Below, in pieces: positions 255-61,275 of a DNA stretch of 64,000 bases. Each line of letters starts with the position of its first letter. The first letter of the stretch is position 1. This stretch comes from a virus. Under the pieces are notes generated by a model. It ran no database searches. It was not told the origin of the DNA and was given only the letters and a program-made list of their open reading frames with translations. The DNA lies in IMG/VR virus record IMGVR_UViG_3300030103_003268, positions 1 through 64,000 of that record. One strand, 5' to 3'. A program made the position numbers and the translations under genes.

Positions 255-911
255 TTAGAAATAATATCCTCTTCTTTCGGCTCTTAATTGACCTTCACTA
301 AATCCTCTATCCATATTTGCGCCCATTTCATTCATAGCAGCAACATATTCACTATATGAAATCTCTTCGTTCCTTAATTGCCTACTAAGTTCTTCGGCTC
401 TTTTCTCGTCCATTCTGTCATCATGCTTAATTCCGACATTAAATCCTAACCTGTTCATAACTAAAGCAGTAAAAGCAGTAGGGTCAGTTAATTCAAATGG
501 TAAATGTATATTTTCTATTTCAGGATAATCTCCGCCTACCCAATACGCTTCGGTGTCGGTGTCAAAATAAAGTATAATTTCTTTTCCTCTTGATTTGGCT
601 TTTACCGCTACACCAAAATGAAGATGACCACTAAAATCATCGGGGGTTTTTTCATTTATTAAATCAGCCACAAAACATTCAACACCCAAAGTATTCAAAG
701 CATCAATTCCTTTTTGAATATTAAATTGTTGAGCATCATTAGAGACAAAAAGACTACTAGCCTCTTTACTCCATGCGTTTTGCTTTAATCTTTCTTCTTC
801 TCCCTCCATTCCTGGATTACTAGCAGACCATTCCCATTCAAACTGCAAGTTCTTGGGCATAGAAGAGTATTTTTCGTTATCTTCCTTTTTAATCGTTGCT
901 TTCCATGTCAT
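255..911 (-). CDS. 218-residue hypothetical protein, W-x-x-x-I-K leader
   Basis: The start is supported by AAGGTGATATT just before the ATG. The N-terminus MTWKATIKKED resembles the leader-like start of neighbouring leftward genes. A mixed alpha/beta middle contains a segment with HLHFGVAVKAKSRGKEI followed by an acidic strand (YFDTDTEAYW). The C-terminal 60 residues are charged and helical and end in RRGYYF. There is no signal peptide or membrane segment. No family is recognised. The orientation matches the leftward structural module at 44.8-64 kb, which suggests a late or virion-associated role, but this is inference. Confidence 0.75.
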   Translation of the reverse strand: MTWKATIKKEDNEKYSSMPKNLQFEWEWSASNPGMEGEEERLKQNAWSKEASSLFVSNDAQQFNIQKGIDALNTLGVECFVADLINEKTPDDFSGHLHFGVAVKAKSRGKEIILYFDTDTEAYWVGGDYPEIENIHLPFELTDPTAFTALVMNRLGFNVGIKHDDRMDEKRAEELSRQLRNEEISYSEYVAAMNEMGANMDRGFSEGQLRAERRGYYF

Positions 912-1669: not shown

Positions 1670-1808
1670 ACTGTATCATGTTATGGGAGTAGGCCATACC
1701 CTATAATGGTGGCGGTTTTACCCTTGTTTAATTAAAGATAATGCTTCAAAATAGGGCTTTTAAAGCATTTCGCTCTAAATGAGAAGAATTAAAAAATTTG
1801 AAACAAAG

Positions 1809-1816
1809 CCATATGG
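1809..1816. repeat. CCATATGG element, copy 1
   Basis: Core in the context CAAAG-CCATATGG-TTGTAG. Together with copy 2 it frames the long inverted repeat at 1840-1997. No gene is seen in 1670-2044. Confidence 0.75.
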
Positions 1817-1839
1817 TTGTAGATTATGAATGCGGGAAG

Positions 1840-1997
1840 AGTTGTTAATAACTACCATTTTCATCTATTGTCTTGTTTTCATCTTCCTTTACAGTTTGCT
1901 ATAGAACGCTATTGGTAACTACAAAATGTTTGTTTATAGCCATCTATGATGAATAACTATCTAATGCAGAAACCCTAAATGATAGTTATTAACAACT
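1840..1997. repeat. Perfect 15-bp inverted repeat around a 128-base AT-rich spacer
   Basis: AGTTGTTAATAACTA at 1840-1854 and its exact reverse complement at 1983-1997. CCATATGG elements lie just outside both arms (1809 and 2004), so about 200 bases form one nested inverted structure. The spacer holds no ORF. It could be a recombination or replication structure, or a relic of an inverted duplication. Confidence 0.7.
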
Positions 1998-2002
1998 TTA
2001 CA

Positions 2003-2012
2003 ACCATATGGT
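2003..2012. repeat. CCATATGG element, copy 2
   Basis: ACCATATGGT with CTTTG to its right. It forms the right flank of the 1840-1997 inverted repeat. Confidence 0.75.
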
Positions 2013-2044
2013 CGTAACTTTGAGTAATGACCCGAAGGCCGCCA

Positions 2045-2170
2045 TTAACGGCAATCGGGGCAAATCCAAACGATTCGCAATTCCTTAACCCAAGTATCAT
2101 TTCCAAATTGGTCGTAAAAACGAACAGTTCCATCAGCGTTGCATTCTTCACAATACATTGTCTCTTCCAT
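2045..2170 (-). CDS. 41-residue zinc-ribbon microprotein
   Basis: The ORF encodes a protein with CEEC at residues 7-10 and CPDC at the extreme C-terminus, the spacing of a two-knuckle zinc ribbon, with a beta-rich segment (VRFYDQFG) between. An in-frame ATG at 2197 would add nine residues; neither start has a clear Shine-Dalgarno sequence. It lies between two CCATATGG elements, and a weak rightward ORF (2139-2330) overlaps its start. Zinc ribbons of this size are frequent in this genome. Role unknown; nucleic-acid or protein binding is plausible. Confidence 0.55.
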   Translation of the reverse strand: MEETMYCEECNADGTVRFYDQFGNDTWVKELRIVWICPDCR

Positions 2171-2217
2171 GCTTAACCCGCAAATGGGCGTATTCATTGA
2201 GGTATTACCAAAGCACT

Positions 2218-2227
2218 ACCATATGGT
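2218..2227. repeat. CCATATGG element, copy 3
   Basis: Context CAAAGCACT-ACCATATGGT-GTTGCTTTG: the AAAGCA/TGCTTT arms extend the palindrome to about 30 bases. I see no convincing gene in 2171-2399. Confidence 0.8.
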
Positions 2228-2399
2228 GTTGCTTTGCTATAACCCTGAAGTGGGACGGGAAGAATTACCTCTTTTCTTCCCGCCCCCGTATTCCCTCTAT
2301 TCCCTGTTTGTTTGGGTCATAGTGCCATAACGAGAGGCTCATGGCTAACGGGCCGCTTTTAGGGTGCTTACGGACTTCATGCCGTATTTGGTGAGTTAT

Positions 2400-2720
2400 T
2401 CAAAGCACACGGCCATTTGAGAAGTCTTCACCCCAAATGGACTTATATTGAGCCAAAAAGTATTGAGCAAAGCGCACAGCGTCAAAATTCCCATTATCAC
2501 GGGAAAACATATTAATCATATGATTAACAATATCTGCGTTAATATCACGCCATCGGGCAAGCATTTCAGCCATTTTCTTATAGTGTCGTCGTTGGAACAT
2601 GATTAACCGCTTAAGACTCACATATAAGGTTTTATTACCAAAGTATGCAACCATATGGTTAGGCTTTGCATTAACCCCATATAGGGGCTTCACAGGGGAA
2701 TTAGCCGTGAAGAGTCTCAT
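2400..2720 (-). CDS. Hypothetical protein, 106 residues (66 if the later start is used)
   Basis: The frame opens with an ATG overlapping the stop of the upstream paralogue gene (ATGA), but the first 40 codons run across a CCATATGG element. A second start at 2600 (MFQRRHYKKM) would give a 66-residue basic, helical protein and leave the repeat outside the gene, as at the other copies. The C-terminal part (ARWRDINADIVNHMINMF, then FAQYFLAQYKSIWGED) looks like a compact helical domain. Function unknown. The GAGGAGG sequence lies too close to the first ATG to settle the start. Confidence 0.5.
   Translation of the reverse strand: MRLFTANSPVKPLYGVNAKPNHMVAYFGNKTLYVSLKRLIMFQRRHYKKMAEMLARWRDINADIVNHMINMFSRDNGNFDAVRFAQYFLAQYKSIWGEDFSNGRVL
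2650..2659. repeat. CCATATGG element, copy 4
   Basis: Context CAAAGTATGCA-ACCATATGGT-TAGGCTTTGCA. It lies inside the 5' part of the 2400-2720 frame if the first start there is used. Confidence 0.75.
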
Positions 2721-3232
2721 TCCTCCTCGGAACCCTCCATATCTGCTTTCGCAGGGGTTGGTTCAATTTGAGGAACCCCGTCTTTAACGGCTACGCCGTC
2801 CCAACGGTTGTCTTTGATTGACTTAACCATGTAGGCATGAGCCTTACCACGGAAAGAGTCCACCAATTCGCTGAATGAACCATATACTCCACCAGTTCGG
2901 CCATGTGGCACGATAACTGACAGAATCAAGTTGTGGTATTCAGTAGGGATTGCAGCAATAGCACCTGCCACGGTTTCCTCCACAGTCGCCAAAACAAGTT
3001 CCTGTTCGTCCGAGAGGGTTGATTCTCGCCCTCGTCGTGCCGCAGGAAAACCCTCCATAGTGGAGCCTATTGAACGAATTGCCGTCCAATAGGTGCTTCG
3101 TAGGTCGTCTGTTCCCGCATTATCGCCCAATGTGAGCGAAAGGAGAACAGCACTCAAGTTGTCGCTTTTTGGCTGTGTTTCAGCCCAAGCCCGCACTTTG
3201 TTTGTGTTCAGTGTCCAATTCTTCATCTTCAT
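2717..3232 (-). CDS. Paralogue family member 1 (171 residues)
   Basis: One of three related proteins in the window (also 4210-4716 and 6472-6945). Shared blocks with the 4210 copy are LRSTYWTAIRSIGS, FPAARRGRES, PHGRTGG and a C-terminal RWDG. The N-terminal third contains a short Trp-rich segment (NWTLNTNKVRAW); the rest is predicted mixed helical. The ATG at 3232 follows AGGTGAAGAAAT. It is followed by the 2400-2720 gene with ATGA overlap. No known domain is recognised. The conserved Arg-rich central block could bind nucleic acid, but that is speculation. The family lies on both sides of the repeat-rich zone. Confidence 0.85.
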   Translation of the reverse strand: MKMKNWTLNTNKVRAWAETQPKSDNLSAVLLSLTLGDNAGTDDLRSTYWTAIRSIGSTMEGFPAARRGRESTLSDEQELVLATVEETVAGAIAAIPTEYHNLILSVIVPHGRTGGVYGSFSELVDSFRGKAHAYMVKSIKDNRWDGVAVKDGVPQIEPTPAKADMEGSEEE

Positions 3233-3340
3233 ATTTCTTCACCTTTCCTTAAAAAAGATACTCTCACGCCGTTTTCCCCTGTGGAGCGATAATAAGGGTA
3301 TGGCATCGCATAAGGTTGTTTCCACGCAAAGCAAGAAACA

Positions 3341-3350
3341 ACCATATGGT
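3341..3350. repeat. CCATATGG element, copy 5
   Basis: Full element about 3314-3360: GGTTGTTTC (3314-3322) pairs with GAAACAACC (3335-3343), and GCAAAGCAA pairs with TTGCTTTGT across ACCATATGGT. Two alternative hairpins are therefore possible. Confidence 0.85.
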
Positions 3351-3397
3351 ATTGCTTTGTTAATACCCTAAACAATACAATAAGTCAAAGAAGAGAC

Positions 3398-3652
3398 ATG
3401 CACGCAGACAAATCGCAGAAAATCGCTAATCTCTTAGTAAATACCTTCCCAAGCCTTCGGCCTTGGATTGAAGCCCAATACCATTCAGCCTTTTTGAAAG
3501 ATATGATGGTTTATGCCGACGAACCTAACGCTATGATTGCTATGTGCGAATTTGCGGCTTCTATTGAGGCTTTCGCTGATACTATCGCAGAAGTCTCATT
3601 TGATGAGATGATACGCATTATGACTGATATGGGATGGGAGGTGCTTGAATGA
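3398..3652 (+). CDS. 84-residue hypothetical protein
   Basis: An acidic, helical protein (MHADKSQKIANLL at the start, DMGWEVLE at the end). Its stop overlaps the ATG of the zinc-ribbon gene downstream, so the two form a small operon. The ribosome site is weak (GAAGAGAC). Residues 30-80 could form a helical bundle. No family is recognised. It lies just after a CCATATGG element, opposite in strand to the flanking paralogue genes. Confidence 0.6.
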   Translation: MHADKSQKIANLLVNTFPSLRPWIEAQYHSAFLKDMMVYADEPNAMIAMCEFAASIEAFADTIAEVSFDEMIRIMTDMGWEVLE

Positions 3653-3783
3653 TTTCCCACTGCCCCACCTGTAAAAGAGAATTGGCTAAAGATGATTTTA
3701 TGTCCTTTGCCTTTATCCTTGGAGGAGACATTTGCCGCTATTGTCTTGATGATGAGCCTTCGGGCCAGTATAACAAAGTATGA
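3649..3783 (+). CDS. 44-residue zinc-ribbon microprotein
   Basis: CPTC at residues 5-8 and CRYC at 29-32 give a compact zinc ribbon (MISHCPTCKREL at the start). It is coupled to the preceding gene by a 4-base ATGA overlap. The stop codon TGA sits directly at the left edge of CCATATGG element 6, so the element begins where the gene ends. Probably a small binding or adaptor protein; target unknown. Confidence 0.6.
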   Translation: MISHCPTCKRELAKDDFMSFAFILGGDICRYCLDDEPSGQYNKV

Positions 3784-3792
3784 CCATATGGT
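3783..3792. repeat. CCATATGG element, copy 6
   Basis: Context AACAAAGTATG-ACCATATGGT-TGCGGAACTTTGTT. It immediately follows the stop codon of the zinc-ribbon gene. Downstream CGCAACCCCATA can also pair with the TATGGTTGCG of the core. Confidence 0.85.
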
Positions 3793-3853
3793 TGCGGAAC
3801 TTTGTTTTCTGAAAGGAAACGCAACCCCATAACCGCATAACGCCGGATGAGGC

Positions 3854-4105
3854 ATGAAAGCAACCCTAACTCAAGATTTACTTACTGGAGAGTGCCGTAT
3901 TAGTATTAAAACCTGTTCGGAGGCCATCAACTACATGGGAGAAATCTTCGGCTTTATCAAAGATAATGGCTTTTATTGCCGAATGACCACTGATTTCTAT
4001 ACGGTCAATTTCACCATTCGTGGCGACGAGGACATAGCGGCCCGTGTCCCTAAAATCATGGGATTCATTAATGACATCACCTGTGGTCGCATTAAGCGTG
4101 ATTAA
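3854..4105 (+). CDS. 83-residue hypothetical protein
   Basis: The start is supported by GATGAGG a few bases before the ATG. The protein (MKATLTQDLLTGECRISIK at the start) looks alpha/beta, with alternating strands in residues 40-60 (FYTVNFTIRGDED) and a basic C-terminus. There is no cysteine motif, signal or membrane helix. It stands alone between two CCATATGG elements. No family is recognised. Confidence 0.6.
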   Translation: MKATLTQDLLTGECRISIKTCSEAINYMGEIFGFIKDNGFYCRMTTDFYTVNFTIRGDEDIAARVPKIMGFINDITCGRIKRD

Positions 4106-4135
4106 CGGCCTTCGGGCCAATTTAACCAAAGTAAG

Positions 4136-4145
4136 CCCATATGGT
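4136..4145. repeat. CCATATGG element, copy 7
   Basis: CCCATATGGT in the context ACCAAAGTAAG-core-TGTGCTTTGCC, about 30 bases after the stop of the preceding gene. A second hairpin, CCCCACC-CATA-GGTGGGG, follows at 4170-4187 and could act as a terminator. Confidence 0.75.
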
Positions 4146-4209
4146 TGTGCTTTGCCAGTTGAAAACGGAACCCCACCCATAGGTGGGGCTGCGAGGGGAA
4201 AGACCCGCA

Positions 4210-4716
4210 TCATTCCTCTTCTTGACCTCCTTCAGCAGATTTAACCGCAGGTGGGGTCATAGTTGGGATTTCACCGTTCATAGAACCATCCCAACGACCT
4301 TCTTTGTAGCCCTTAACGAGCGCATCATAGGCTTTCTTACCCATTGAACGGGCAAAGGCCATGATATCTTCATAATCGCCACCAGTTCGCCCGTGAGGGA
4401 GAATAACGGTAGTAATGAGGTCAGGGTTAGTAATGCCCGCAAAGGCAGTAATAACCGCATTCTTCACAGAAGTCGCATTTAGGTCTACTTCTTCGGGCAA
4501 AGATGATTCTCGGCCTCGGCGGGCGGCTGGGAAATCGTCATAAGGACTCCCAATAGAACGAATAGCCGTCCAGTATGTAGACCGCAATTCGTCGTTATCC
4601 GTTGCATTTCCAAGTGTAATAGAAAGAGAAATGGCTTGACCCACATCTCCCCTATCTTCAAGTTCAAGCCATGCTTGAACCGCATTCGTGTTCTTAATCC
4701 AGTTGTCTTGCTTCAT
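4210..4716 (-). CDS. Paralogue family member 2 (168 residues)
   Basis: The closest relative is the gene at 2717-3232: the two share LRSTYWTAIRSIGS, FPAARRGRES and LPHGRTGG almost unchanged and diverge mainly at the ends. The start at 4716 (MKQDNWIKNTN) has an ideal GGAGG eight bases upstream; an upstream in-frame start would lie beyond that site. The protein ends in EGGQEEE. Function unknown. Like member 1 it is followed by a structured repeat. An arrangement of duplicated leftward genes facing small rightward genes suggests local duplication within this zone. Confidence 0.85.
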   Translation of the reverse strand: MKQDNWIKNTNAVQAWLELEDRGDVGQAISLSITLGNATDNDELRSTYWTAIRSIGSPYDDFPAARRGRESSLPEEVDLNATSVKNAVITAFAGITNPDLITTVILPHGRTGGDYEDIMAFARSMGKKAYDALVKGYKEGRWDGSMNGEIPTMTPPAVKSAEGGQEEE

Positions 4717-4775
4717 AATCAATTCCTCCAAAAAGGTTTGATGCGTCCGTTTTCCCCTCGGAGCAACTAATGGCG

Positions 4776-4837
4776 ACCATAGGCGACTATGGTTGCTTTT
4801 TCATTAACACTCGCAAAGCGAAAAGCAACCATATGGT
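4776..4837. repeat. CCATATGG element, copy 8, with upstream hairpin
   Basis: ACCATAG-GCGA-CTATGGT (4776-4793) is followed by TATGGTTGCTTTTTC, which pairs with GAAAAGCAACCATA leading into ACCATATGGT (4828-4837). GCAAAGC and GCTTTGC flank the core. This is the most elaborate copy. It sits upstream of the 4716 start, within a gene-poor stretch (4717-5522). Confidence 0.8.
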
Positions 4838-4879
4838 TGTAATTATGCTTTGCATTAATAAAACCATAAAGAAGGCTAC

Positions 4880-4938
4880 ACTAAACGGACAGGGAAAAGC
4901 CTATATTGGTGCATTTCGTGCTAATTTGTCCGTTTAGT
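4880..4938. repeat. Perfect 11-bp inverted repeat with 37-base spacer
   Basis: ACTAAACGGAC at 4880-4890 and GTCCGTTTAGT at 4928-4938. The spacer has no ORF. It may be a paired protein-binding site, a stem in a transcript, or a recombination site. Confidence 0.65.
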
Positions 4939-4939
4939 G

Positions 4940-5400
4940 GGTGAATACAAAACGCCGCCTACTCCATTCATATCCGACTAACTGCCTTACTGTTGTTTCC
5001 GTCTCTAATTCGGCATGCCTCCTTAGATTTGTTTCCTTTCGGGTCTTACTACGCTGTGTTTCGGCTTTGTTTCCGATTGATGTTTATGGCCAATCAACCA
5101 AGGGAATTTGAAAAGGGTGGGATGAAGAATTGGGTATCTCCAAGTATGATGCGATTGGGTCGCACTCACTTTTGAACGCTCCTTAGATTTCGTCTTAAGA
5201 GCCATACTACCGATTTCATGAAGTTAGTTTGTAGCCAACCGCCTTTTGAGCCTTAATCACTTTCACAGGGAACAATTAATCTGCCTCTTGGCCGTCATAA
5301 CTGCTATGTGTCCCACAACAGGAGAAATCGTCCATTACCCCCGTTCAAAAGGGCATTAATGGTAATCCCCTCCGAGGGAGCGACCCCCGAAGCAATAGAA
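4940..5400. other. Gene-poor stretch with no confident feature
   Basis: Only weak frames are present: a 60-residue basic minus-strand frame (5023-5205) and a 60-residue plus-strand frame (4993-5175). Neither has a convincing ribosome site or composition. CTCCTTAGATTT occurs twice (near 5021 and 5182). I cannot support a gene here. Confidence 0.4.
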
Positions 5401-5446
5401 CCGAGCGATTATCGCTTATGGTTCTCTATAAGCAAAGCAATATAGA

Positions 5447-5456
5447 ACCATATGGT
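5447..5456. repeat. CCATATGG element, copy 9
   Basis: ATGGTTCTCTATA (from 5419) can pair with TATAGAACCAT leading into the core. GCAAAGCAA and TGCTTTGTT flank ACCATATGGT. The two-hairpin plan is the same as in copies 5 and 8. Confidence 0.85.
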
Positions 5457-5522
5457 AATGCTTTGTTATTTACCCCAACGCTCCATTATTAAAGGCATTT
5501 GAAGGGGCAATCCGCTATTTCA

Positions 5523-5639
5523 CTACTCTTCCTCCTGTATATAAGCCATACTCAGCAAAGCGGCCTCAATGACCAGTCCGTTCTTATTACACAGTTTCAC
5601 AAGGGCTTTAGCCAATCCACACCAATCCATAGTCTTCAT
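5523..5639 (-). CDS. 38-residue hypothetical protein
   Basis: A short leftward ORF starting MKTMDWCGLAKAL and ending YIQEEE, with an amphipathic helical pattern (LAKALVKLCNKNGLVIEAAL). The Glu-rich C-terminus is typical of many genes in this window. The upstream sequence AAGATAAAC is a poor ribosome site. It is a better candidate than the overlapping Ser/Leu-rich rightward frame (5499-5687). Function unknown. Confidence 0.4.
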   Translation of the reverse strand: MKTMDWCGLAKALVKLCNKNGLVIEAALLSMAYIQEEE

Positions 5640-5733
5640 GTTTATCTTAAGTGGGTATGTTCGCAACTTGTTGATTTAAATGTTTAATGTTTCAATTTAA
5701 ATTTTTAGAGGGTATTTATAACAAAGCAACAAT

Positions 5734-5743
5734 ACCATATGGT
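5734..5743. repeat. CCATATGG element, copy 10
   Basis: ACCATATGGT preceded by ACAAAGCAACAAT. The right arm is degenerate (TTGATAC). It lies across a weak rightward frame (5687-5902) that I do not call. Confidence 0.7.
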
Positions 5744-5828
5744 TTGATACTATCAAAGAGCGCAGAATATTCTTATTTAGCGATATTCAATGACACTGAA
5801 ATGGGGAGAATTTTCAACCCCCAAAAAT

Positions 5829-6405: not shown

Positions 6406-6420
6406 GGACTCCTTTATATA
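6406..6420 (+). promoter_or_regulatory. Promoter with shared GGACTCC-TTTATATA box
   Basis: GGACTCCTTTATATA lies 51 bases before the ATG at 6472, the right distance for an archaeal TATA box with a leader of about 25-30 bases. The same 15 bases precede the ubiquitin-like gene (15096) and occur once inside the clamp-loader gene (31888). GGACTCC occupies the BRE position read by TFB proteins. Confidence 0.7.
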
Positions 6421-6471
6421 CCGAAAGACAACTGTTGAGAATACCCCGCAAAGGGGAAGGAGAGAATATAC

Positions 6472-6945
6472 ATGGATGATACCACATGGGAAAGCCTCAA
6501 AATTGAGGTGAACGAATACCTAGAAGCCGACACTACGCTTGATGCTGGATTGCGTCAAGTCGTTGAATTGAACCTGCAAATCGGGACGAACAACCCCGAT
6601 GAGCGAACTGCCGCCGAAGGTGCGCTTAAAGCACTTTTGAAGGGAAGAGACGGAACTCCGTTCCGCCGAGGCCAAAAGAGCGCAGTTCCAGCCGCAGTTC
6701 GTGTTTCTATTGACCGAATCTGTGGAGTTGTTGAAGAAGCCGCTATTGGCTACTACAACCACGATGCAGTTATTGGTGCAATTACAATGAAGCACATCAA
6801 ATCTGGTGGCGGAAACTTTGATGGCGCAGAAGATTACGCTTCTGCTGTCGTTAAGCGAACCCGAAACAACCTTGGCAAAATGTTCAAGGCTGGCGATTGG
6901 GACGGTAGCGTTGATTCCCTTTTAGGCGAATCAAGCGACCTTTGA
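6472..6945 (+). CDS. Paralogue family member 3 (157 residues)
   Basis: A divergent member of the family at 2717 and 4210. It keeps the order of blocks: a short N-terminal helix (TTWESLKIEV), a central basic block (PFRRGQKS in place of FPAARRGRES), then a Gly-rich GGGNF and a C-terminal GDWDGS. It has its own promoter (6406-6420), a strong ribosome site (GGAAGGAG) and a run of hairpins behind it, so it is probably transcribed as a single gene at high level. Function unknown. Its position at the head of the rightward module and next to the origin candidate suggests an early role. Confidence 0.85.
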   Translation: MDDTTWESLKIEVNEYLEADTTLDAGLRQVVELNLQIGTNNPDERTAAEGALKALLKGRDGTPFRRGQKSAVPAAVRVSIDRICGVVEEAAIGYYNHDAVIGAITMKHIKSGGGNFDGAEDYASAVVKRTRNNLGKMFKAGDWDGSVDSLLGESSDL

Positions 6946-6970
6946 GATTAAAACCTCAAACAACCGCTTA

Positions 6971-7040
6971 TCAGGTCAATGACCTGAACAACGGGGAATA
7001 GGAGTCTAAGGACTCCTATTCTCCCCTTTTCCACAAGGGG
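6971..7040 (+). terminator. Tandem hairpins after the third paralogue
   Basis: TCAGGTC-AAT-GACCTGA (6971-6987) is followed by AATAGGAGTC-TAAG-GACTCCTATT inside GGGG/CCCC (6993-7026) with TTTT next, and then CCCCTT-TTCCAC-AAGGGG (7023-7040). The middle stem plus T-run looks like a terminator. A further GAAGAGAG/CTCTCTTC pairing extends to 7089. Confidence 0.65.
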
Positions 7041-14587: not shown

Positions 14588-15010
14588 ATGGCAGGAATAA
14601 TTAAAGAATGTCGCCAATGCGGAATCAACTTCAGAACAAAAACAATTAAAGCAGGTGCATGGCAAGCCTACTGCAATCCTTGTTTTGGAGCAAGACAAGA
14701 AAGTAATGCTGAAAAATCTATCAAGAAGCGACAATCTCATATGTTTGAAGCACTAGATGACAGAATCAAAAGGATAGAGGAAAAAAGTCAGCACATGGAT
14801 ATGCTGGTTTCTGCTGAAATCAGTAATGCCTTAACAAATCTCTCAAATAATGATTTGTTTAATTCAGTGAATGATGCTATGCAAAAGGCACTAGAAGAAA
14901 AAAAGAAGCAGATTGATGCTGATAATAAGAAGTTTAAAGATAAGATTCAAAAACAATTAGTTATGCTAAATAACAAATTGGTTAAAATTATGCAGGAGAT
15001 GGAAAAATGA
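14588..15010 (+). CDS. Zinc finger plus coiled coil (140 residues)
   Basis: CRQCG (residues 8-12) and CNPCFG (about 30-35) form an N-terminal zinc site, followed by about 95 residues of Lys/Glu/Gln-rich coiled coil. Such proteins often act as oligomeric adaptors. The start uses the GGAGGAATAAATATG cassette. Function unknown. Confidence 0.65.
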   Translation: MAGIIKECRQCGINFRTKTIKAGAWQAYCNPCFGARQESNAEKSIKKRQSHMFEALDDRIKRIEEKSQHMDMLVSAEISNALTNLSNNDLFNSVNDAMQKALEEKKKQIDADNKKFKDKIQKQLVMLNNKLVKIMQEMEK

Positions 15011-15093
15011 TTAAAAAATTAGCAAAGATTGCATTTAACCAACATTCTGTGTTGGGATTGACAATGTGGGTATTGACTTACCCATTGGAGTAG
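15007..15093 (+). CDS. 28-residue hydrophobic peptide
   Basis: An ORF overlapping the preceding stop by 4 bases (ATGA) encodes MIKKLAKIAFNQ followed by a hydrophobic stretch, so it could be a small membrane peptide. GGAGATGGAAAA supplies a ribosome site. It ends just before the promoter at 15096. Its short length makes it uncertain. Confidence 0.35.
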   Translation: MIKKLAKIAFNQHSVLGLTMWVLTYPLE

Positions 15094-15095
15094 GT

Positions 15096-15110
15096 GGACT
15101 CCTTTATATA
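15096..15110 (+). promoter_or_regulatory. Promoter with shared GGACTCC-TTTATATA box
   Basis: Identical over 15 bases to the promoter at 6406. It lies 38 bases before the ATG of the ubiquitin-like gene, so the transcript leader would be short (about 10-15 bases) and contain GGAGATGAG. Confidence 0.75.
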
Positions 15111-15148
15111 CTTTGGAAGAGTAGAGAAAACACAACGGAGATGAGAAT

Positions 15149-15355
15149 ATGATTAAGTTGAGAATTATGAACGAAACTGGACACACAGAAGTTGTCCTTG
15201 CAGAAAGCGAAGTTATTGACCAAATTGACCAACACCCGACCCATTGGGTGTTTATTGACGGTGAAATGGTTGCTAGAGAATCTATCGGGGAAATTAATTG
15301 GGACACTGTTCAATCAGTGGATTTGACCCCCGCTATTGTTGGAGGAAGTTATTGA
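15149..15355 (+). CDS. Ubiquitin/ThiS-like beta-grasp protein candidate
   Basis: A 68-residue protein. It starts with a beta hairpin (MIKLRIMNETGHTEVVL), then a short helix (SEVIDQIDQ), then WVFIDGEMVARESI, and ends with a strand and LTPAIVGGSY. The DGE-V-R segment and the terminal strand leading into Gly-Gly closely resemble ThiS/MoaD sulfur carriers and ubiquitin-like modifiers. Two residues (Ser-Tyr) follow the Gly-Gly, as in precursors that a JAMM protease trims. The window also encodes an E1-like enzyme (20980) and a JAMM protease (22627). It has its own promoter and a strong terminator, so it is probably made in quantity. The assignment is by pattern, not by database match. Confidence 0.65.
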   Translation: MIKLRIMNETGHTEVVLAESEVIDQIDQHPTHWVFIDGEMVARESIGEINWDTVQSVDLTPAIVGGSY

Positions 15356-15390
15356 GATTAATTTCTCTTAACTCTTCCAAACCACCATTC

Positions 15391-15435
15391 GGGGGTAGCG
15401 TAGGATTTAATCCATCCTGCGCTATCCCCTTTTTT
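15391..15435 (+). terminator. Terminator after the ubiquitin-like gene
   Basis: A long stem (GGGGTAGCG with CGCTATCCCC, plus an inner AGGAT/ATCCT) followed by six T. It isolates the 15149 gene as a single-gene transcript. Confidence 0.8.
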
Positions 15436-15440
15436 GGGTG

Positions 15441-15821
15441 ATGCAACCCGATTTGATAAATTTTATCAACCAAAATGGATTAAAAATAATGCTAGACCTG
15501 AAAGGATGGACTTATTCCTCCTGTATTCAGATAAATGGTTTAGCAGTAGTCAAACCCGACTTTTACCCGCCCCGTCATGTCCTCGCTATGGGCAAGAGGG
15601 GCTACATTTATTGCGACGGGCAGACTCGGATAGATTACGCAGGGAAAGTGTTTTCATCAACAGATGAATTACTCAATACCTGCGGTGAAGAAGCAATTCT
15701 TCATTTTAAGGATTGGGTATTCCTTGAAGAAAAAGAATGGGTGATAACCGATGGTAGTCATTGGTTAGCCTCATTCTCAAATCTCTCAGAATTACCTAAA
15801 AGAAGCAAATATAGGTGTTAA
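15441..15821 (+). CDS. 126-residue hypothetical protein
   Basis: Starts MQPDLINFINQNGLK with GGGTG just upstream, only five bases after the terminator T-run. Mixed alpha/beta with several Cys and Trp, including YIYCDGQTRIDY and FLEEKEWVITDG. It precedes ribonucleotide reductase by two bases, so it may be co-expressed with it. No family is recognised. Confidence 0.6.
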   Translation: MQPDLINFINQNGLKIMLDLKGWTYSSCIQINGLAVVKPDFYPPRHVLAMGKRGYIYCDGQTRIDYAGKVFSSTDELLNTCGEEAILHFKDWVFLEEKEWVITDGSHWLASFSNLSELPKRSKYRC

Positions 15822-20804: not shown

Positions 20805-20983
20805 GAAAAGATAAATTAATAACAGGTTTTACTTGTGTTTGTATTGATGGAATTGGATTTGGCCACCAACCAACGGTGGTTAAATGGCATCCAACAGATA
20901 CAACCGCAGAATGTCTTGAATGCCAGCGAGTTTGGGATTTAGAAGTAATTAAATATACAATAGAAAATGGAGGATGGGAATGA
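20801..20983 (+). CDS. 60-residue zinc-ribbon protein ahead of the E1 gene
   Basis: CVC near residue 12 and CLECQ near residue 38, with two His between, indicate a zinc site. It ends IENGGWE, and its last codons contain the GGAGG ribosome site of the E1-like gene. It is translationally coupled on both sides. It may be an accessory to the E1 or an unrelated adaptor. Confidence 0.65.
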   Translation: MRKDKLITGFTCVCIDGIGFGHQPTVVKWHPTDTTAECLECQRVWDLEVIKYTIENGGWE

Positions 20984-21540
20984 TGAGAAAAATATTAGTA
21001 ATTGGAGCAGGTGGAATTGGAAGTTTTCTGATTCCTACATTAGATAAAGTGGGCCTTTACCGCATTCATGTGGCTGACCCTGATTCGGTAGAAACAAAGA
21101 ACCTACCTTATCAAAACTTTAAGAAAGGCCATGTTGGGCAAAATAAGGCTCAGGTAATGATGGATTCCTACGAATCTGTCTCTACTTTTAGCAAATACCC
21201 AGTTTTGACTGAAAAACAAATGCAGGGCTATGACCTTGTGATTTGTTGTGTTGATAACTTGGGTGTGAGGCGAACCTTATACAACACAACCCTTAAATGG
21301 CTTGACTTACGAGCGCAAGGTAGAAATGCCGCACTTGTGAGTCATAAGGCCGACCCGAAGATGTATGATATGCTCTTAGCCGGAGAAGAAGGTTCATTCA
21401 GTTGCCAAGGGGATTCGTGGGATGGAACAAATAGTAATGTTCATTTTATGCAGGTCGCAATTGCAGGATTAGGCTCACAATGGATTCAAAGATATTTTAA
21501 TAAGGAAGAAGTGAGAGATTATATGGTGGTGAATGTATGA
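20980..21540 (+). CDS. ThiF/E1-like adenylating enzyme (short form)
   Basis: A 186-residue Rossmann-type E1 domain. It shows the nucleotide loop GAGGIGS, DPDSVETKNLPYQNF with GHVGQNKAQV (the D...N...K activation motif), and CCVDNLGVRR (the conserved D/C-VDN block). A single Cys in GSFSCQGD near residue 140 is a candidate thioester residue. E1 proteins adenylate the C-terminal Gly of ubiquitin-like or sulfur-carrier proteins. At under 190 residues it lacks the extended C-terminal half and CxxC zinc pairs of MoeB/ThiF, and resembles the short plasmid/phage E1 forms such as PRTRC-type ThiF. It is coupled to the genes on both sides. Confidence 0.85.
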   Translation: MMRKILVIGAGGIGSFLIPTLDKVGLYRIHVADPDSVETKNLPYQNFKKGHVGQNKAQVMMDSYESVSTFSKYPVLTEKQMQGYDLVICCVDNLGVRRTLYNTTLKWLDLRAQGRNAALVSHKADPKMYDMLLAGEEGSFSCQGDSWDGTNSNVHFMQVAIAGLGSQWIQRYFNKEEVRDYMVVNV

Positions 21541-22625
21541 GTGAAAGAAATTTTTGGACGGATGAGCAGGTGGCGTTTCTTGTTGTTTGTAGAACAAAAA
21601 GACAAACATGGGAACAGATTGCACTTTCTATGGAAAGTAAATTTGGCTTTTCAAGAAGTCCTTCTAATATTGCTAATAAATATCGTAGTCTATTTGATGG
21701 CGACCATGCCAAAGAATATACGCCCGAACAGTCAAAATTCATTATTGATTGCTATTTGAATCACTTCCAAACAAAAGTGATTCTTGAGGGTTATTTTGAA
21801 CAGTTTGGTCAGACCATTAATCCATCGGATATTGATAAAGTCGTAAAAAAGCATCTAGCGACTGAAAAGAAAGTAGATGCTGAAATTAAAACAATAAAAA
21901 CAAAAATTAAGGAGAGAAAAAAGATGAAAACTAACAGAACGGCCGCTAAGTGGTCAAAAGAAGAAGATGAGATGATTATGGCGTGTAAAAGCCGAAAGGA
22001 AGCACTGTCGCTCCAAATTGGGCGAACACAGGGAGCACTTCGTAATCGTTGGCAAAATTTGAAAGTAAAAGCAAAGGCAGTAAAACCTGTTGAGAAAGTT
22101 TCTCAGCCAAAAAAGGGCGCAAAGCGTGGACGAATGACAAATGTTGAATTAGAAATGATTCGCAATTGTAAAACGGTTGAAGAAGCATTGGCTTTGAATT
22201 TGCGAAAGCCTGAAACAATTATTCGGCAATTCGCTACTTTCAATTCAAAGAAGAAAGAAGTGGTTCTTGCAGTTAGACCTAAGCAAAATACTCATGGAAA
22301 CAAGGGTAGGAAATATACTCCCCGTTGGACAAAAGAACAGGACTATGACCTCATCTTGAACTTTTACGAACTTTCAATTGACGAAGCCCGAAACCGATTT
22401 AATCGGCCATACGGAGTTATCGCAAGCCGCTTAGAAAAGTTGGTTGATAGCACAAAGCCTGAGCATATCTCTATGCTTATGGAGGCTTCAAAGGAAATCA
22501 AGAGTCGCAAGAAGGCACAGAACCCAACGCCCAAAAAGAGCCGCAGAACACTACGCAAAGAGCGAAAGAAGGCTAAGAAAGAGGCTAAGTTGAAGGCCAA
22601 GTTGCAGAAAATCCGAGGTGAATGA
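21537..22625 (+). CDS. Protein with four Myb/SANT-like repeats
   Basis: A 362-residue basic protein with four Trp-led helical repeats: NFWTDEQVAFLVVC near residue 5, KWSKEEDEMIMACKS near 140, RGRMTNVELEMIRNC near 200 and PRWTKEQDYDLILNF near 260. Each is followed by a helix-turn-helix-like segment, for example RTQGALRNRWQNLK. The C-terminal 50 residues are almost all Lys/Arg. This is the layout of a Myb/SANT or related tri-helical DNA-binding protein. It sits between the E1-like and JAMM genes, with ATGA-type coupling to the first. It may be a transcription factor or chromosome-binding protein. Confidence 0.8.
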   Translation: MSERNFWTDEQVAFLVVCRTKRQTWEQIALSMESKFGFSRSPSNIANKYRSLFDGDHAKEYTPEQSKFIIDCYLNHFQTKVILEGYFEQFGQTINPSDIDKVVKKHLATEKKVDAEIKTIKTKIKERKKMKTNRTAAKWSKEEDEMIMACKSRKEALSLQIGRTQGALRNRWQNLKVKAKAVKPVEKVSQPKKGAKRGRMTNVELEMIRNCKTVEEALALNLRKPETIIRQFATFNSKKKEVVLAVRPKQNTHGNKGRKYTPRWTKEQDYDLILNFYELSIDEARNRFNRPYGVIASRLEKLVDSTKPEHISMLMEASKEIKSRKKAQNPTPKKSRRTLRKERKKAKKEAKLKAKLQKIRGE

Positions 22626-22626
22626 A

Positions 22627-23202
22627 ATGAGTAAAAGTAGCGATTGGGCGTTAAAAGAACAGGAGAAGAATGAAATGAAAGATGAAAGTGAAATTGAACA
22701 AGCAGAATTGGAGTATTTTAGAGAGAAAGCCATCTCTGATATTAAGGAATCCTTTGAAGAGATTCTTGAGATTAACCTTAACTCTTGTAAAGGCCCAAAG
22801 GAAGAACTATTAGATGTTGCTATGCACAACAAAAATTTTCATGAAGTTATTTGGAAGGCTTCAACGGAAACATTACCTCATCTTGAAGTGCAGGTTGTAA
22901 TTGATGGAAAAAACAATTGTTTCGTTTCAACAGGAACGGCTGGCTTTGTTGATTTCTTTGAGCCTCCAATTGGTATGACTCTTCCTATTCGTTGCTGGAT
23001 TCATACTCATCCATTTGGAGCCGCCTATTTTAGTGGAACCGATATTCGGACAGTTTCTATCTGGGAACAGAATATGGAATGTGCATATGTTCTTGGTGGA
23101 ATTGACCATCATGGTTTTTGGAGTAAGCGAGAACCTAAACAATTGGAAATCTATGAAGATAATGAGGAATACAAAATACAAACATGGGGTGAAGAAGAAT
23201 GA
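22627..23202 (+). CDS. JAMM/MPN metalloprotease (deubiquitinase-like)
   Basis: A 191-residue protein with an N-terminal helical region (1-60) and a JAB/MPN domain. HTHPFGAAYFSGTD is a perfect H-x-H-P-x6-S-x-x-D zinc motif, which marks active JAMM isopeptidases. A catalytic Glu should lie upstream, near the VQVVIDG strand region or the preceding helix. These enzymes cut after the Gly-Gly of ubiquitin-like proteins or remove them from targets. ATG 22627 follows AGGTGAATGAA. Together with the E1-like gene two positions upstream and the Gly-Gly protein at 15149, it suggests a modifier pathway. Confidence 0.87.
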   Translation: MSKSSDWALKEQEKNEMKDESEIEQAELEYFREKAISDIKESFEEILEINLNSCKGPKEELLDVAMHNKNFHEVIWKASTETLPHLEVQVVIDGKNNCFVSTGTAGFVDFFEPPIGMTLPIRCWIHTHPFGAAYFSGTDIRTVSIWEQNMECAYVLGGIDHHGFWSKREPKQLEIYEDNEEYKIQTWGEEE

Positions 23203-59761: not shown

Positions 59762-59965
59762 TTAATACCCCTCATGATAATAATCTCCATATGCTCTTGC
59801 ATCTGCCGAATCATTTAATAAGTCTAATTTACAATCTTCACAAAGATTTTCAGGTTCGTAGCCCATTTCTCTAGCCATTTTATTACCCATTTCATCATAT
59901 TGGCTATATGTAGCAGGTTGTTTCTTACAGCGAACACACATATTTTTAATTATATTTTTCCACAT
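59762..59965 (-). CDS. Zinc-ribbon protein with MWKNIIK leader
   Basis: 67 residues from ATG 59965. The N-terminus MWKNIIKNM matches the leader seen in the left-edge genes. CVRCKK and CEDCKL form a zinc ribbon. It sits among head-tail genes, so it may be packaged with the virion. Function unknown. Confidence 0.6.
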   Translation of the reverse strand: MWKNIIKNMCVRCKKQPATYSQYDEMGNKMAREMGYEPENLCEDCKLDLLNDSADARAYGDYYHEGY

Positions 59966-59970
59966 AATAA

Positions 59971-61275
59971 TCAATCCAAGAAATAAACTAAATCTCCCTT
60001 GCCTTTCAAAATATCCATAGCCTCTTTACGAAGTATATCATACTTTTCTTTTGTTGAAATATTACCACCCGATTCGGTAATTAGAATACTTTGGTCGTCA
60101 TGCCGGATAATTTCAGAAGCAACTAACTTAGTCGTTGCTTCGTGAATTGCAGACGGCACTCTATTATCACCGGCAATATATGAAACAATAACTGAATTAT
60201 TTCTATGATAGGGATAGTCCTTCAAAAAGAAAATACGCCCCTCTTCATTAATTGTCCAGAAATCACCAAGCCTTCTTAAGTCTTCTTTATCTGTAAATAC
60301 TTCTATTGTGCAAACTGTCGGTATTTCATTTTCTGTGGTAAATGTTAATGGTGTTGAAAATGCTCCGCCCGTTGAGGAATGACTCAAAGTAATAGTTGTT
60401 GAATCTACAATAGCAGCAATTGTGGTTGAAGTCACTATATTAACTGCTCCGCTAACCACCATACCTACTGCTAATTTGCTAGAATCAGCAACAGTAAGGT
60501 TTGTTGAGTTATTGCCCGAACATGACTGTTTTATGGTGGCCTTGATGACACAATCTGCCCCATCATCCCCCGAAAGTAGGGATGAGATGAGAATTTGTTT
60601 CCCGTTTGACTTGGCCTTCGCACCATAGAAAAAGTCAGAAATGGCTAGATTAGAAGAAATAAGACTTTTTGGTGCAGTTGCTTTAGTAAATTGAGACATT
60701 GAAGGAAAAGACTCGTTTATTAAAGAAACAATATCATTAGCGGTAGTTTTTATTCCAAAGGTTGTATTGAATTCATCATTTCCTAAACTACTAACATCAA
60801 CTTCGCTTTTCATTTCAAAAGATACGCCACTATTAGGCAACTGAAGAATAATAGAATGCAAGTCTCTATAATTGTCTTGTAGAGTAATTTTTGCTTGAGC
60901 CGAAGCAATTTCAATATATTGACTTCCTTGCCACAATTGAAGAGAAACAATCTTTCTTACCTTCATCTTTGATAATTGCACAAAACCGACATGACCTCCA
61001 TAATACGCCTTATGCGGGAGGCGAGAAAATTCAAAGTTATGGTGTTCATCCTTTGTGATAATTGGTCGGTATGAACGCTTCACCTTGTCATCAACAATAC
61101 CCTCCACCCTTTTGATGATTGACCCGACTTGAGCCAATGTGGGGAAGGTAGATGCTGAAAAAGCGGGAACTTGTAAGAGATTCGCAACCTCAGTAGCGTT
61201 GGTATAATGTCCTCTTCCATCCGAATATAGCGGATTAATTTCCGTAAAATCGCTAGGCGAGATTGTTTGTCCCAT
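59971..61275 (-). CDS. Head-tail connector protein (434 residues)
   Basis: Start ATG 61275 (GGTGCTTGAA upstream). The C-terminal part (VIVSYIAGDNRVPSAIHEA, TKLVASEIIRHDDQSILI, then YDILRKEAMDIL) resembles gp6-like adaptor proteins of siphoviruses. The N-terminal half is beta-rich with a Ser/Thr/Gly insertion around residues 240-310. It would join the portal to the tail. Upstream, on the right, other head genes are expected. Confidence 0.6.
   Translation of the reverse strand: MGQTISPSDFTEINPLYSDGRGHYTNATEVANLLQVPAFSASTFPTLAQVGSIIKRVEGIVDDKVKRSYRPIITKDEHHNFEFSRLPHKAYYGGHVGFVQLSKMKVRKIVSLQLWQGSQYIEIASAQAKITLQDNYRDLHSIILQLPNSGVSFEMKSEVDVSSLGNDEFNTTFGIKTTANDIVSLINESFPSMSQFTKATAPKSLISSNLAISDFFYGAKAKSNGKQILISSLLSGDDGADCVIKATIKQSCSGNNSTNLTVADSSKLAVGMVVSGAVNIVTSTTIAAIVDSTTITLSHSSTGGAFSTPLTFTTENEIPTVCTIEVFTDKEDLRRLGDFWTINEEGRIFFLKDYPYHRNNSVIVSYIAGDNRVPSAIHEATTKLVASEIIRHDDQSILITESGGNISTKEKYDILRKEAMDILKGKGDLVYFLD

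Follow-up and report, generated by a model that had tools for sequence, protein, structure and literature searches.

Why should a virus that packs the neighbouring genes tightly keep one short gene apart, between a promoter-like box and a stem with a run of T? The gene in question encodes a ubiquitin-like protein (Ubl) and lies in a 64,000-base stretch, here called the window, of the virus record IMGVR_UViG_3300030103_003268, which has 94,476 bases in total; the remaining 30 kb were read as two loci. The original prediction saw a single-gene unit with its own promoter and terminator. After comparison with relatives, the answer I consider probable is that the gene supplies the Ubl of a viral Ubl-E1-JAB module and is its own transcription unit, with a TATA box, a stem and U-tract at its end and, in lineages with a two-residue tail, a panhandle. 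The unit exists and most of the virus group has kept it, but it is not universal.

Virus and host

The open reading frames (ORFs) of the window, named by reading, include an SF1 helicase, TFB, the RFC small subunit, PCNA, a split PolB, MCM and GroEL/GroES. This is also the gene content of Aoguangviridae, or magrovirus group B (PMC10768690), so that the window agrees with the ICTV profile in a comparison of gene content, and the virus appears to be magrovirus group-B-like. Because of this match, its host would be a marine archaeon of the Poseidoniales. One difference stands out: the ICTV profile makes no mention of a ubiquitin-like protein, ThiF or JAB (PMC10768690). A ThiF-family gene is prevalent in archaeal viruses (PMC8276007).

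Two further features of the genome deserve description. About 15 proteins of the opposite-strand (virion) module begin with M-(S/T/N)-W-K-x-I-L-K or close variants (window 255-911, 955-1260 and 59762-59974; L166 9031-16615; L167 6164-12370), a start that resembles an N-terminal tag common to them for packaging or targeting. At the GC-richer, gene-poor end of the window (1800-5750) the palindrome ACCATATGGT is present in many copies together with flanking CAAAG-type repeats.

A small protein with an invariant Gly-Gly

The Ubl gene (15149-15355, plus strand) encodes 68 amino acids and ends in DLTPAIVGG-SY; its classification draws on sequence, alignment, an AlphaFold2 model and structure matches. 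Relatives in viral contigs number 93 by single-sequence search and 168 by alignment search; 80 loci were kept from each, and 67 distinct loci were compared. Among 28 diverse aligned members I, N, GH, HPT, W, F, R, W, L and AIVGG are invariant, the Gly-Gly standing in all 28 and followed by 0-2 residues. The AlphaFold2 model (pLDDT 87) predicts the order beta-beta-alpha-beta-beta-alpha-beta, that is, a beta-grasp fold, and its best structural matches are MoaD, ubiquitin, the bacterial Ubl of an E1-E2-Ubl complex, ThiS and TtuB. MoaD, ubiquitin and ThiS occupy the top rows of VIA-align at middling Z (up to 6.1); Foldseek with the same model gave no E below 0.001, and Pfam, NCBIfam and PHROGs profiles gave no Ubl match above their curated cut-offs. 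A profile of the PinA protease inhibitor matches 16 of the 28 members weakly (best E 1.4e-4, below cut-off) and was set aside, as both fold and partners fit a Ubl. The named phage records searched held no Ubl relative. Three contigs binned as an Altibacter (bacterial) MAG (L161-L163; NZTP01000016/27/30) carry this archaeal-virus Ubl family and are probably mis-binned virus contigs.

A gene set apart from its neighbours

The neighbours are densely packed, as had been claimed: in the plus-strand module at 7696-44383, 41 of 54 intergenic gaps in the gene list from ORF calls are at most 10 nt, mostly overlaps. Two genes alone, those for the Ubl and GroEL, are separated from both neighbours by more than 30 nt. 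A Shine-Dalgarno-like GGAG (15137-15140, plus strand), kept in relatives, lies 8 nt before the ATG. On the 3' side the next ORF (15438-15821, plus strand; 127 amino acids) begins with GTG at 15438 or ATG at 15441, directly after the T-run, which leaves the Ubl unit without an insulating gap there. The same placement is seen in many relatives, and in some the next ORF is farther from the stem. The idea of a single-gene unit thus holds for the conserved TATA box and the covarying stem described below, but not for an insulating free gap downstream; that of an own transcription unit holds for most of the group, but some lineages are without the TATA box. Comparison with relatives supports the Ubl gene well as a separate transcription unit.

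The start of the unit

The promoter-like box GGACTCCTTTATATA (15096-15110, plus strand; TATA at 15103-15110) was found where predicted, exactly 38 nt before the ATG at 15149. Of the 67 distinct loci, 50 have a TATA box at -36 to -60, whereas 60 of 1605 control starts (3.7%) do; this comparison marks the start of a unit and not unusual promoter strength, because most control starts lie inside operons. The strict box is missing in 17 of the 67 loci. Elsewhere it is kept across clades although the surrounding sequence is unrelated; conserved, and at a position that would set the transcription start ahead of the gene, it looks like an archaeal TATA promoter. A sigma-70 scan returned 55 promoter-like sites, with 62.7 expected, and none at the Ubl TATA box. 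The upstream regions of tRNAs gave no calibration of the distance from TATA to start.

Could the promoter-like sequence instead encode a small membrane peptide, GVGGLLYILWKSRENTTEMRI, whose frame runs into the Ubl start? That frame is indeed open up to a TGA that overlaps the ATG. The relatives, however, have the end of another frame in common, that of a 28-aa ORF (15007-15093, plus strand) that ends in TYPLE here and in DADYPLE in L002, and from this shared YPLE stop it follows that the promoter region is not coding. The persistence of the TATA box in unrelated surroundings also speaks against a peptide, and with the comparison of relatives already contradicting it, the idea is scarcely credible.

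The window contains exactly three copies of GGACTCCTTTATATA, where 0.12 would be expected with up to 2 mismatches: before the Ubl gene, before the gene at 6472-6945 and within the RFC small-subunit gene. The last, an exact copy at 31888-31902, may be an internal promoter or a coding coincidence. The copy before 6472-6945 belongs to a second single-gene unit (6406-7034) with a conserved leader hairpin, a GC stem with TTTT and the gene with the most capsid-like codon usage in the window.

The end of the unit

The long stem and six T that had been noticed just after the gene are there: a GC-based stem-loop of 16 pairs, GGGGGTAGCGTAGGA..CCTGCGCTATCCCC (15391-15429, plus strand), is followed directly by TTTTTT (15430-15435). 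Ranked by a simple pairing score, it comes first among the stems of the 64-kb window, and its 90-nt surroundings have a folding energy of -34 kcal/mol (z -5.6; none of 200 shuffles as good). A strong stem recurs in 53 of 67 loci, nearly always with a GGGG..CCCC base, while compensatory changes have replaced its middle part. The median folding energy at the loci is -25.7 kcal/mol against -9.9 for control 3' regions. In nine stems of equal length, two-sided (compensatory) changes occur at 11 of 16 pairs and 97.9% of cells are paired, a value reached by none of 500 shuffles; the stem is therefore a structure under selection. An Rfam search found two tRNAs only and nothing at the Ubl locus.

A GC stem and then a U-run make this an intrinsic-terminator-like element, and the stem may terminate transcription. 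Archaeal terminators usually need only a U-tract. Complete termination would silence the 127-aa gene, whose start codon directly adjoins the T-run, and since there is no room for a promoter before this gene, read-through or cleavage must supply it. Because only 2-5 nt separate the T-run from the next gene, partial termination, attenuation or processing at the stem is more likely than a full stop. Taken further, the stem would be no terminator at all but an attenuator or processing site within one transcript running from the Ubl promoter through the 127-aa gene to a ribonucleotide reductase gene, and cleavage at the U-run would leave a stabilised Ubl message and a leaderless downstream message. 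The close downstream start here and in many relatives, the space too small for another promoter and the 14 of 53 strong-stem loci that keep the stem without a T-run all favour such a transcript. Conversely, at least four T fall within the next 8 nt in 39 of the 53, and the next ORF is farther away in some relatives. I regard this as a serious possibility that stops short of being probable, and I continue to read the element as the end, perhaps a leaky one, of the Ubl unit.

Complementary arms around the gene

The original prediction did not notice that the sequences following the TATA box and the stop codon are complementary to each other. The 5' arm, TTTGGAAGAGTAGAGAAA (15112-15129, plus strand), begins, in the median over loci, 3 nt beyond the TATA box; the 3' arm, TTTCTCTTAACTCTTCCAAA (15362-15381, plus strand), lies just after the stop. 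When the arms pair, the GGAG stays unpaired. The 11-mer TTTGGAAGAGT has exactly two copies in 64 kb, the two arms themselves, and an operator shared by a regulon was rejected on this ground.

Over 67 loci the arms of one locus are more complementary to each other than to those of other loci (z 15), and the excess persists with one representative from each of 33 clades (z 9.6): the arm sequence is replaced from clade to clade while complementarity is maintained. This own-versus-cross test was used in place of position-by-position compensation, which gave no information over all locus pairs when these were aligned permissively (8.4%, with 4-7% for shifted partners). The whole signal comes from the 46 loci with two residues after the Gly-Gly (z 15.2); the 21 loci with 0-1 residues serve as an internal control and give z 0.0. 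This restriction probably reflects lineage. The distant L163 (50% identity) has perfect 10-bp arms and neither a clear TATA box nor a strong stem, so the arms are independent of both.

Do the arms pair as RNA? In strict alignments of the Ubl arms, G.U mismatches outnumber A.C by 14 to 6 (p 0.12), which is weak support, because looser alignments gave no difference (43:39 and 21:14). The arms of a second family give 15:4, and the two families together 29:10, a pooled count that is not independent of shared ancestry. The G.U excess leans towards pairing in the sense RNA.

Archaeal TATA boxes normally lie some 25 nt before the transcription start. With that spacing the Ubl transcript would start near 15133, just past the 5' arm, so that the arm would be absent from the message. 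This leaves three options: a start nearer the box, a role for the arms in transcripts that come in from upstream, or a role on DNA. The last of these, whether as protein binding with looping, a cruciform or an invertible segment, draws on this spacing, which would leave the 5' arm untranscribed, and on how closely the arm follows the box. I nevertheless hold it to be unlikely: the arm sequence is not found at other promoters in the window, it changes completely between clades while pairing stays, the G.U excess appears in both families, and indels distinguish the two arms, unlike recombination sites. An invertible element was rejected for the same indels. Bulge-helix-bulge excision was also considered and rejected, as the arm alignments show by eye no regular 3-nt bulges.

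The second family consists of paralogous proteins of about 170 amino acids (window 2717-3232 and 4210-4731, minus strand), which in many genomes are also flanked by covarying complementary 5' and 3' arms (z 20.5); by eye, two short motifs are seen repeatedly, TTGCTTC ahead of the 5' arm and GTTGC behind the 3' arm. It is conceivable, though I would put it forward only tentatively, that magrovirus-type archaeal viruses form a panhandle mRNA in two unrelated gene families, in which the stretch between promoter and ribosome site pairs with the one right behind the stop codon and covariation preserves the pairing while the sequence keeps changing. If true, the panhandle would serve generally to process, circularise or stabilise selected short messages. 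The icaR mRNA of Staphylococcus aureus (PMC3868564) is comparable in that its 5' and 3' UTRs are complementary, but there the pairing covers the Shine-Dalgarno sequence, whereas the Ubl arms leave the Shine-Dalgarno-like site free and their pairing covaries across many virus clades.

The E1 and JAB partners

A ThiF/MoeB-type E1-like enzyme (20974-21540, plus strand; PF00899, E 7e-17) and a JAB/JAMM protease-like protein (22618-23202, plus strand; PF14464, E 9e-4, below cut-off) are encoded about 6-8 kb from the Ubl gene, inside a dense operon. A ThiF-type E1 is present in all 33 searched records that carry the Ubl and a JAB in 32 of the 33, the latter always scoring below the Pfam cut-off. The E1 conserves GxGGxGS, DxDxVExKN, DN..R and SFSCQG, with one invariant Cys, and the JAB conserves HTHPFGxAYFSxxD. 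This co-occurrence and the kept motifs define a core Ubl-E1-JAB module. Among the ORFs read, none was recognised as an E2. That the Ubl is set apart from the dense E1/JAB operon fits a substrate made separately from its enzymes.

Bil systems likewise combine three parts within a genome: a beta-grasp Ubl with Gly-Gly, an E1 of the ThiF/MoeB type and a JAB peptidase. The same three parts make up the prokaryotic neighbourhoods described by Iyer et al. (2006; PMC1779556), from which the present case differs in its archaeal-virus-like genome, in the Ubl split off as its own unit and in the want of a recognised E2. In lambda and T1 tail assembly, TAPI and the JAB-NlpC protein TAPK also pair a viral Ubl with C-terminal glycine with a viral JAB (PMC1779556). 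The magrovirus-like Ubl, by contrast, has an E1, lies outside a tail cluster and has no TAPI-C or NlpC domain; as a 68-aa protein with no further domain, encoded in the replication module, it is not a lambda TAPI.

What is the Ubl for? Instead of modifying proteins, it could be a sulfur carrier of the MoaD/ThiS/TtuB type for viral or host thiolation. Those three proteins are among its best structural matches, the E1 is minimal with its single invariant Cys in SFSCQG, and no E2 was recognised in the ORFs that were read. The JAB encoded close to the E1 points the other way, as does the lack of any recognised sulfur-using enzyme among the ORFs read by eye in the 94-kb record, part of which was profile-searched. 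A sulfur carrier is quite possible, if somewhat less likely than not to be the right answer.

Two observations concern the partners elsewhere. IMGVR_UViG_3300021958_000021 (L006, L060; 184,733 bases) carries two different Ubl, two E1 and two JAB genes and is either two joined genomes or a double genome. The Bacteroides crAss-like phage DAC15 and bajarodcaudo virus 1 (PQ006092.1, MT074136.1; L168, L169) encode an E1-like protein about 27-29% identical to this E1.

Expression and proposed mechanism

High expression of the Ubl, as the original prediction has it from the isolation of the gene, is a conjecture that draws on this architecture and a mild codon signal: in 58 of 66 loci the Ubl gene exceeds the locus mean in GC3, and its codon similarity to the capsid gene ranks 12 of 89, for a gene of 68 codons.

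Taking the parts, their conservation and their covariation as observed, promoter and terminator activity, RNA level, enzymology and panhandle function would fit together as follows. TBP and TFB would bind the TATA box at 15103-15110, and RNA polymerase would make a message of about 300 nt from the Ubl gene. The GC stem and U-tract would end most transcripts or protect their 3' end, with a little read-through past the stem into the 127-aa gene. In two-residue-tail lineages the 5' and 3' flanks of the message would pair into a panhandle, which may hold the mRNA ends together or mark the message for processing. Ubl would in this way be plentiful compared with the E1 and JAB, which are made from the long operon. 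Its Gly-Gly end would then be activated by the E1, and the JAB may cut off the 0-2 residues beyond that end, release the Ubl from its targets, or both.

Two things appear to be new: a Ubl-E1-JAB module that is widespread in archaeal viruses and has its Ubl split off, and the covarying pairing of message ends; a literature search, without several key magrovirus papers, found no description of the Ubl or the arms. An uncultured and widespread virus group thereby gains a defined Ubl-E1-JAB module, together with a concrete guess about its stoichiometry, namely that the tag is made apart from its enzymes. Finally, the covarying arms point to control of single genes at the RNA level in archaeal viruses.
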